Part shown: positions 28,818 through 30,531 of the stretch, in pieces
How the letters are laid out: each line of letters starts with the position of its first letter
Position numbering within the stretch: the first letter of the stretch is position 1
Source of the DNA: Thermoprotei archaeon
GTDB taxonomy: Archaea; Thermoproteota; Thermoprotei; QMSL01
Length of the DNA stretch: 64,000 nt
Reading direction: 5' to 3'
Assembly (NCBI GenBank): GCA_003650925.1
Contig: QMSP01000007.1
Coordinates: 18,800 to 82,799, forward strand
Program-made: the position numbers and the translations under genes
The notes under the pieces: model-generated
What the model was told of the DNA's origin: nothing
Databases searched by the model: none
What the model saw: only the letters and a program-made list of their open reading frames with translations

Positions 28818-29849
28818 CTAGTATTCCCCTAGGATGTGCTCAGCAGGAGTGAACAGATATCCCTTATTGTGAGCCTCTTCAATTCTCCTAAGAACTTCCT
28901 TGTTCTCTGTGAGAATCATAGCACAACCTCCTTTAACTACTTTAATTCCAGATAATTTCAGAGCTTCTGAGAGTATATGGCTTGAGGAAGGAGCTACTAT
29001 AAGAGGTAGGCCATGGTTCTTTGCCTTATGGATAAGATACAGGATTAGAGAGGCTAGGCTTGACGCCTTCATGTCTTCAGAGAATACGACATCAGATATT
29101 AGGCCAACGTGAAATACCTGCCCTTTAATGTTGTGATAGTCTCTCAGAGATAAAGTTGCTGTACATTGTATTCCTTCCGCTATAGCATGTTTTCTCCTGA
29201 GTCGTTTTTCAGAGAGGCTACTATAGAGAGATAGTGTGGGCCCTAAGTCTGCATAGTTTCTAATAGCATCATCAACAGATATGAGCTTGCCATGCTCCTC
29301 TACTCTAGGCTTAAAGCTTACAAACCTTACAAGGACTCTATCTAGCCAACGAGGTAACAGGCCTAGGAACGCGGTCTTATCAGCTATGAATATGCCAATG
29401 CCGACGTCGAATATATCTTTAAAGCCTCTTCTTCTGTACATGTTCCAAGCTATGCTCCCACGAGCTGTATATAGCATTGTGAAGTCCACCTTCTCCTCCT
29501 CTACCCTCTTCAAGGCTCTATCGAAGACAAGTCTTCCATAGCCCCTTCCCTGATGGTGAGGTAGAACAGCCACATCATCTATGAAGCATGAGCTGAAATG
29601 GTCTCCCTCAACCACTACATCTTTAAATGTAAGAACGGTTGTAGCAACTACTCTGCCTTCAACCTTCAAAAGTGCAACCTCCACTCTTGGCTCTGACCCA
29701 TATCTTTCAAGCCATTCCTCAGGCCTTCTATATAGCGCAATACCAGCCTTACTAGCCCTTATAAAAGCTTCATTAAAGACTACGCATATATCATTGACCT
29801 CGTCTAGGCTAAGCTCTTCAAACCACCTAACTGTGACGACCTCCTGCAC
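28818..29849 (-). CDS. GNAT-family N-acetyltransferase, two-domain
   Basis: A 343-residue protein. The first 155 residues are a GNAT domain with the acetyl-CoA binding loop VAVLPHHQGRGYGRLVF near 87-103 (R/QxxGxG/A) and AWNMYRRRGF near 130-139. The remaining part has no cysteine cluster or known motif and may be a second degenerate GNAT half (IVAPSSSHILSEALKLSG). Similar two-domain archaeal acetyltransferases exist. It starts with GTG at 29849 after GGAGGG. The 360-nt gap upstream is filled with guide RNA genes on the same strand. Substrate is unknown. Confidence 0.75.
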   Translation of the reverse strand: MQEVVTVRWFEELSLDEVNDICVVFNEAFIRASKAGIALYRRPEEWLERYGSEPRVEVALLKVEGRVVATTVLTFKDVVVEGDHFSSCFIDDVAVLPHHQGRGYGRLVFDRALKRVEEEKVDFTMLYTARGSIAWNMYRRRGFKDIFDVGIGIFIADKTAFLGLLPRWLDRVLVRFVSFKPRVEEHGKLISVDDAIRNYADLGPTLSLYSSLSEKRLRRKHAIAEGIQCTATLSLRDYHNIKGQVFHVGLISDVVFSEDMKASSLASLILYLIHKAKNHGLPLIVAPSSSHILSEALKLSGIKVVKGGCAMILTENKEVLRRIEEAHNKGYLFTPAEHILGEY

Positions 29850-29877
29850 ATGGCCTCCCTCCTCAATAGACCTCAGC

Positions 29878-29932
29878 TTGATCAGTGAGGTCGGTGTTCA
29901 TCACTATTCAGTCCACCCTAGCCTATCATCCT
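29878..29932 (-). ncRNA. C/D-box guide sRNA, downstream member of tandem pair
   Basis: On the minus strand: C box AGGATGA (29926-29932), guide TAGGCTAGGGTGGA (29912-29925), D' box CTGA (29908-29911), 3-nt spacer, C' box GTGATGA (29898-29904), guide ACACCGACCTCA (29886-29897) and D box CTGA (29882-29885). D', C' and D are perfect. Its C box is only one nucleotide from the D box of the preceding RNA (29934-29937), so the two units may be cotranscribed or joined. The second guide would pair with UGAGGUCGGUGU. No target can be confirmed here. Confidence 0.8.
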
Positions 29933-29933
29933 C

Positions 29934-29990
29934 TCAGCCCAGACTATTCTTCATCTCCAAACATCCGCCCTCACACGGCTCATCATCAGC
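29934..29990 (-). ncRNA. C/D-box guide sRNA, upstream member of tandem pair
   Basis: On the minus strand: C box ATGATGA (29980-29986), guide GCCGTGTGAGGG (29968-29979), D'-like CGGA (29964-29967), 6-nt spacer, C' box GAGATGA (29951-29957), guide AGAATAGTCTGGG (29938-29950) and D box CTGA (29934-29937). Both guide lengths are normal. A TATA-like sequence around 30001-30014 lies upstream but its distance is slightly short. One base separates its D box from the next unit's C box, leaving no room for separate terminal stems. Confidence 0.78.
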
Positions 29991-30067
29991 TAGCTCCAGA
30001 ATATACTATTTCCAGCCTGAGCTTAATGTCTTACTGACACCTCGCCTACTCATGATAAGCAAGCCAC

Positions 30068-30130
30068 TGGTATCAGCTCGTGGGTTCCTAATCATCGTCT
30101 TCCTCATAGGTGCGAGTCTTCATCACCTCA
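30068..30130 (-). ncRNA. C/D-box guide sRNA
   Basis: On the minus strand: C box GTGATGA (30120-30126), guide AGACTCGCACCT (30108-30119), D'-like ATGA (30104-30107), 5-nt spacer, C' box ACGATGA (30092-30098), guide TTAGGAACCCACGAG (30077-30091) and D box CTGA (30073-30076). A TATA-like gtgtttaatgg at about 30150-30160 gives the correct spacing for a start near 30130. The second guide shares nine nucleotides, GAACCCACG, with a guide of the RNA at 20968-21032. Confidence 0.8.
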
Positions 30131-30210
30131 AAAGTCAACTAGTGTGAAAGCCCATTAAACACTTTCGCTGCTTGTTCAGGGCTAGAATTCATGAATAAAG
30201 TCAAAAAGAT

Positions 30211-30531
30211 TCACTTCCTAAGCTTAGCGCCTACTAGATATATCCCCTTGAGTCTCCATCCATCTCTCTCCATCTTGCACTTAACTTCATTGAGCTTACT
30301 CTCCTCAACCTCCTCTACAGTATAGACTGTAAGACTTCCTGGCCTCTCGAACGTTAGAGCATAGACTAGCTCTATATCCTCTGACATCTTGGCAAGGTCC
30401 TGAAGCGCACGTTTTGCATCTTCTATGCTAGGCAGGTTAAGCCATCTCCTAGCTGACCTTACGCTTATGTATCCCATACTCCTTATTATGTCCCTCATCA
30501 GTAGCAACTTATGAACTCCTATACGCGCCAC
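30211..30531 (-). CDS. Hypothetical protein (106 aa)
   Basis: An unrecognised protein of 106 residues starting with GTG at 30531. Residues 10-55 are helical with SVRSARRWLNLPSIEDAKRAL, which might be a helix-turn-helix-like segment; the remainder alternates strands. It is divergent from the corrinoid protein gene and followed by the sRNA cluster. No function assigned. Confidence 0.5.
   Translation of the reverse strand: MARIGVHKLLLMRDIIRSMGYISVRSARRWLNLPSIEDAKRALQDLAKMSEDIELVYALTFERPGSLTVYTVEEVEESKLNEVKCKMERDGWRLKGIYLVGAKLRK

Follow-up and report, generated by a model that had tools for sequence, protein, structure and literature searches.

A box C/D sRNA cluster of three same-strand units, which we name sR-A, sR-B, and sR-C, occupies an intergenic region of the Thermoprotei archaeon DNA examined here, with a single base separating sR-B from sR-C. 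We put at about 78% the probability that this cluster gives rise to a di- or tricistronic precursor from which ordinary two-guide sRNAs are processed. The evidence is drawn from the DNA itself, namely from the anatomy of the units, their clustering, their complementarity to tRNAs, and the occurrence of an sR-B guide elsewhere. The window, as used below, is the whole 64-kb stretch of DNA that was analyzed.

The locus lies between a gene for a 106-aa protein upstream and a GNAT acetyltransferase gene downstream, with all elements on the minus strand and the three C/D units contained within 245 nt. The first of these units, sR-A, went unmentioned in an earlier note on this DNA, though it shares both the strand and the intergenic region with the other two. 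The features of the locus, with the two units of the pair parsed by sequence reading and by script, are as follows.

30211-30531, minus strand, gene for a 106-aa protein without a Pfam family, upstream of the cluster
30126-30073, minus strand, sR-A, first C/D sRNA at the locus, 86 nt ahead of sR-B
29934-29986, minus strand, sR-B, upstream C/D sRNA of the pair
29986-29980, minus strand, sR-B C box, ATGATGA
29979-29968, minus strand, sR-B D' guide, GCCGTGTGAGGG
29967-29964, minus strand, sR-B D' box, CGGA, followed by a D'-C' spacer of 6 nt
29957-29951, minus strand, sR-B C' box, GAGATGA
29950-29938, minus strand, sR-B D guide, AGAATAGTCTGGG
29937-29934, minus strand, sR-B D box, CTGA
29933, minus strand, junction base G, the sole base between the sR-B D box and the sR-C C box
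29882-29932, minus strand, sR-C, downstream C/D sRNA of the pair
29932-29926, minus strand, sR-C C box, AGGATGA
29925-29912, minus strand, sR-C D' guide, TAGGCTAGGGTGGA
29911-29908, minus strand, sR-C D' box, CTGA, followed by the D'-C' spacer ATA
29904-29898, minus strand, sR-C C' box, GTGATGA
29897-29886, minus strand, sR-C D guide, ACACCGACCTCA
29885-29882, minus strand, sR-C D box, CTGA
28818-29849, minus strand, GNAT acetyltransferase gene, start codon 32 nt past the sR-C D box

The earlier note had described two C/D guide RNAs lying head to tail with a one-nucleotide gap, each with readable C, D', C', and D boxes and guides of 12-14 nt; both parts of this description stand, the first through G 29933 between the boxes and the second through reading of the minus strand at 29800-30080 and script alike. 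The guides measure 12 and 13 nt in sR-B and 14 and 12 nt in sR-C, and the D'-C' spacers are 6 and 3 nt, respectively. When scored against RUGAUGA and CUGA, the boxes of sR-C mismatch at 1 of 22 positions (in its C box) and those of sR-B at 2 of 22 (one base each in D' and C'), and in both units the boxes follow the order C, D', C', D. Boxes, guide lengths, spacer, and a D+5-paired target together mark sR-B and sR-C as predicted archaeal box C/D sRNAs. An origin of the pair by tandem duplication was considered and rejected, as the two units share no guide stretch longer than 7 nt with each other or with other sRNAs of the host. A guide that is common to two loci, GCTCAGGCGAC, was seen in L176 (255-304, plus strand) and L139 (281-234, minus strand), where it was probably duplicated.

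To judge these units against chance, we scanned both strands of the window for C/D boxes, with composition-matched Markov shuffles of the whole window as the control. The window contains four C/D units with at most one box mismatch and six with at most two, whereas the shuffled windows averaged 0 and 0.1, respectively. All six units are on the minus strand, and they include sR-A, sR-B, sR-C, and the following three.

43907-43859, minus strand, further C/D sRNA from the box scan
33013-32966, minus strand, further C/D sRNA from the box scan
26772-26721, minus strand, further C/D sRNA from the box scan

These three units are strong, and one of them has four perfect boxes. The host assembly (2.14 Mb in 81 contigs) has Thermoprotei relatives and was compared with three other genomes of the same order; with twelve C/D units as the basis of a sequence model, 69 matches were found in it. 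Curation yielded 61 non-redundant units, in which most guides are 12 nt long and the D'-C' spacer is 3 nt in 52. The host thus uses a large, standard set of C/D guides, and this abundance, along with the nature of its relatives, suggests a heat-loving organism. Because the number of units in the window is far above that in the shuffles, and because the genome holds 69 model matches, we judge sR-B and sR-C to be real. Rfam models at their own thresholds gave zero matches in the window, which was expected since the guides differ. With an open threshold (E<=1) applied to 29850-30210, all 20 of 20 matches were to archaeal C/D sRNA families, each of them sub-threshold, and the best outlined three separate units (29879-29933, 29932-29990, and 30070-30129). 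The sR30 model also matched a shifted register at 29906-29958, again below threshold, where the sequence can be read directly as one more unit.

29957-29908, minus strand, register-shifted C/D-like unit, from the C' box of sR-B to the D' box of sR-C

This shifted unit contains the two guides for which no target was found (see below) and is a by-product of the 1-nt junction.

A search of the 39 tRNAs of the host showed that the sR-B D' guide is a 12/12 Watson-Crick complement of the tRNA-Val(CAC) anticodon arm (CCCUCACACGGC), with its D+5 nucleotide at the wobble base, C34. The chance of such a match is 2.7e-4 per guide for random guides of the same composition and 4.2e-4 for the shuffled guide, and the sR-B D' guide ranks best of the 122 guides of the host against its own tRNAs. 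From this pairing, the guide is predicted to direct 2'-O-methylation of C34 in tRNA-Val(CAC). The sR-C D guide forms 10 contiguous Watson-Crick pairs with initiator tRNA-Met, with G46 at D+5 (chance ∼0.005 per guide); this suggestive match makes initiator tRNA-Met its probable target. Since the assembly is without a 16S gene and has only 104 nt of 23S, we took rRNAs from genomes of the same class as proxies (15 LSU and 15 SSU genes), in which the sR-B and sR-C guides found no convincing position conserved across species. For the sR-B D guide and the sR-C D' guide, neither the 39 tRNAs nor the proxy rRNAs offered a convincing target, and an SSU helix-44 match of the latter (TCCACCCGAG) was set aside because of its central mismatch. 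According to Lui et al. (2018), as cited in PMC7994747, tRNA-targeting sRNAs combine a guide for a tRNA with one that lacks a target, and position 34 is typical. Two other sRNAs, at L164 (307-259, minus strand) and L142 (314-266, minus strand), have guides whose D+5 falls on a wobble base, U34 of tRNA-Val(UAC) and U34 of tRNA-Ala(UGC), respectively. A further C/D sRNA, at L081 (1366-1418, plus strand), is located just upstream of a tRNA gene, and its D' guide pairs contiguously over 11 nt with the initiator tRNA-Met T arm, at a site that overlaps the one predicted for sR-C.

The C34 guide was also sought in other genomes, by means of a pattern consisting of a C or C' box, the guide, and a D box. 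This pattern occurs in 14 of 101 genomes, the host included, compared with one for the reversed control pattern. In f7, a family other than that of the host, the C34 guide is the D guide of a single sRNA type in one genus (GTGATGA ccagcgatta CTGA tttaacc GTGATGA tgcgtgtgaggg CTGA). Another genus carries it as the D' guide in a second kind of single sRNA, which lies upstream of a ribosomal-protein-like gene. Since the guide is present in these free-standing two-guide sRNAs, the function of the sR-B guide is not tied to the fused form. A pattern for the tRNA-Val(CAC) anticodon arm, used to look for covariation with the guide, had no match in the f7 genomes. The locus thereby adds a predicted guide for tRNA-Val(CAC) C34, one that recurs across two or more families within the class.

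Among the genomes searched, conservation was seen only for the first unit of the cluster. In each of G001, G002, and G003, the other genomes of the order, sR-A is kept downstream of the 106-aa gene, and its guides there read GGAACCCACG(G/A) in 3/3 and (A/G)GACTCGC in 2/3. The D guide of sR-A, GGAACCCACG, has a 10-base pairing with the T arms of both tRNA-Asn(GUU) and tRNA-Arg(UCU), with U50 at D+5. Among the genomes searched, the 106-aa gene itself is confined to the four genomes of this order; the GTDB contigs that carry it belong only to the "Thermoprotei archaeon" MAGs AUK080, B3_G16, and AUK163, and the search of GTDB contigs returned no relatives beyond G001-G003. Downstream of the gene in these three genomes, sR-B and sR-C are absent, and a DNA search of 40 relatives matched sR-A alone. 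The earlier note had proposed a comparison of synteny in related genomes; none of the other genomes searched was seen to hold sR-B and sR-C side by side. One match in G031 overlaps the sR-B D guide, and being isolated, weak, and without boxes, it was taken as chance.

Closely spaced same-strand units do occur elsewhere in the host genome. A pair at G000:C5 (L134, 309-204, minus strand) has a 6-nt gap, and a second at G000:C22 (L157, 250-∼360, plus strand) has a gap of ∼10 nt and a degenerate C box in its second unit; random placement of 70 genes would yield 0.015 such tight pairs. Looser same-strand sRNA pairs, with gaps of 68-86 nt, are found in the genome as well. The one-base gap of sR-B and sR-C is therefore not a unique arrangement, but it is the tight extreme. 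In G005 (L177, 250-351), two C/D sRNAs on opposite strands converge, their tails 4 nt apart, and their D boxes form CTGAATTTTCAG.

So small a gap bears directly on the ends of the two RNAs, and in the earlier note two separate terminal stems were said not to fit. By the strict k-turn register, sR-B could build an external stem of 1 bp, and sR-C one of 3 bp, from UGA 29936-29934 with UCA 29881-29879.

29879-29881, minus strand, UCA, possible 3' half of the sR-C external stem, with the 5' half inside the sR-B D box

As the sole stem of sR-C uses the UGA of the sR-B D box, the two terminal k-turns compete for shared bases on one molecule, and to this extent the argument holds. It does not carry further, because in the k-turn register 37 of the 61 host units have an external stem of 0-1 bp (>=2 bp in 24, compared with ∼10 in shuffles); with most sRNAs of the host lacking a strong stem, missing room for one does not alone imply a fused RNA. 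RNA-seq studies describe sRNA ends that are unpaired or very short in N. equitans (PMC3491384) and in M. kandleri (PMC3695527), and end pairing is present in the circular sRNAs of T. kodakarensis (PMC9014305). What the one-base gap does entail is that a single precursor molecule cannot supply sR-B and sR-C with their normal flanks at the same time.

Promoter signals were compared at -35 to -26 relative to the C box, the position at which AT content peaks upstream of the host's sRNAs. TATA scores in this place are 2.7 for sR-B, 1.1 for sR-C, and 3.8 for sR-A, compared with 6-11 for 20+ other sRNAs of the host. A TATA-like AATAGTATATT before sR-B was rejected, since it is ∼10-15 nt too near the C box by the standard of the other sRNAs. 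The low scores for sR-B and sR-C make cotranscription on a longer precursor likely, and adjacent same-strand units without promoters of their own for all are what a putative polycistronic C/D cluster comprises.

From these features, we infer transcription, processing, RNP assembly, and methylation as follows. sR-B and sR-C would be transcribed together, probably on a precursor common with sR-A or with the flanking genes; each unit would fold on its own boxes, bind L7Ae, Nop5, and fibrillarin, and be trimmed to a two-guide sRNA of ∼55 nt. Maturation could (i) yield both sRNAs with almost no flank or (ii) yield either one alone from each precursor. Archaeal C/D genes are reported to be grouped in twos or threes, which points to polycistronic transcription; most are promoterless, and the maturation of C/D sRNAs depends on internal boxes (PMC7994747). 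In the other tight pairs of the host, whose units are 6 and ∼10 nt apart, separate processing is easier to imagine. Some points count against it, namely that the gap, being tighter than in the other pairs, provides no flanking sequence from which two independent terminal k-turns could form, that D' and C' of sR-B are off consensus, and that the pair was found in one genome only. The earlier note had left the choice between a processed precursor and a single four-guide RNA; the former is now favored, whereas the latter went unsupported in view of the single sRNAs with C34 guides and the pairs with 6- and ∼10-nt gaps.

A single ∼110-nt RNA with four guides, which as one RNP or a chain of RNPs would methylate up to four sites, strikes us as quite improbable. 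Its terminal k-turn would be built from the sR-B C box and the sR-C D box, and the D-G-C junction would become an internal k-loop between the D'/C' k-loops. Such a fold has some appeal, given that the 1-nt D-C junction resembles a D'/C' motif, that D'-C' spacers down to 0 nt are possible readings of three other sRNAs of the host, that the shifted register (29906-29958) is picked up by an Rfam C/D model, and that both terminal k-turns contest the same bases. However, the sR-B guide is found in single two-guide sRNAs elsewhere, the other pairs of the host show gaps of 6-10 nt, and the fused fold is unremarkable (z -1.3) and would pair the sR-B D' region with the sR-C D guide, hiding both; in addition, 489/489 sRNAs from seven archaea carry two guides (PMC4644070). 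We would likewise be surprised by a composite guide RNA in the wider sense, that is, either the four-guide ∼110-nt RNP or an alternative-register precursor (for sR-B, sR-C, or 29957-29908) in which the junction serves as a switch between mutually exclusive sRNAs.

That only one unit is functional, beside a decaying or silent neighbor, is unlikely; sR-B would be the likeliest survivor by its perfect tRNA guide, or sR-C by its better boxes. While two internal boxes of sR-B are off consensus, the searches gave no target for two of the guides, archaea often have orphan guides (PMC7994747), and the pair is known from a single genome, four boxes and normal guide lengths are intact in both units, and one guide in each has a significant tRNA match. 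Action in cis, whereby the C/D units in the GNAT 5' leader would bind L7Ae as k-turns and control translation or mRNA stability, seems far-fetched. A distance of 32 nt does separate the end of sR-C from the start codon of GNAT, which shares its strand, and L7Ae of Sulfolobus regulates mRNAs through 5'-UTR k-turns (PMC5539422), but a regulatory k-turn would make the four-box, two-guide anatomy and the tRNA complementarity superfluous, and among 60 relatives no homolog of this GNAT with the same upstream context was found.

The sR-B/sR-C pair shows how tightly C/D guide genes can pack, and it offers a clean test of box-only maturation, in that processing which relies on flanks could not release the two RNAs together from a single precursor. 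Should both ∼55-nt RNAs exist, neither a flank nor an external stem is needed; should there be only one sRNA, or a 110-nt RNA, the arrangement would be informative in its own right.

Among known systems, archaeal box C/D sRNAs (Rfam snoPyro_CD and sR families) resemble sR-B and sR-C in their boxes, 12-14 nt guides, 3-6 nt spacer, D+5 position at a tRNA wobble base, and large number per genome, whereas sR-B and sR-C differ by their one-base separation and by reaching no Rfam gathering score. C/D sRNAs that target the anticodon include those for position 34 of tRNA-Leu, -Met, and -Trp in Pyrococcus, and wobble-targeting sRNAs are found in Pyrobaculum. sR-B is like them in having one guide on the wobble base and the other without a target, and it differs in its predicted tRNA, Val(CAC). 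Clustered or dicistronic C/D genes and tRNA-sRNA dicistrons (Tripp et al. 2017, as cited in PMC7994747; N. equitans, PMC3491384) are similarly adjacent on the same strand, with a promoterless second gene and with maturation attributed to internal boxes (PMC7994747, as far as this account goes); the one-base gap sets sR-B and sR-C apart. No published gap this tight was found in the literature searched, in which Tripp et al. (2017) and Lui et al. (2018) were represented through PMC7994747 and not by the originals. TIGR arrays (TIGR-Tas, PMC12045711) are also made of head-to-tail dual-guide units with C/D-like motifs, whereas sR-B and sR-C have no edge or loop repeats, comprise two units only, and possess consensus k-turn boxes and predicted tRNA targets. 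We rejected a TIGR array on the grounds that there are no repeats beyond the boxes and that a Pfam scan of the eight neighboring proteins revealed no Nop or nuclease domain. Set beside these systems, the pair represents a known gene arrangement at unusually close spacing and probably does not amount to a novel type of RNA.
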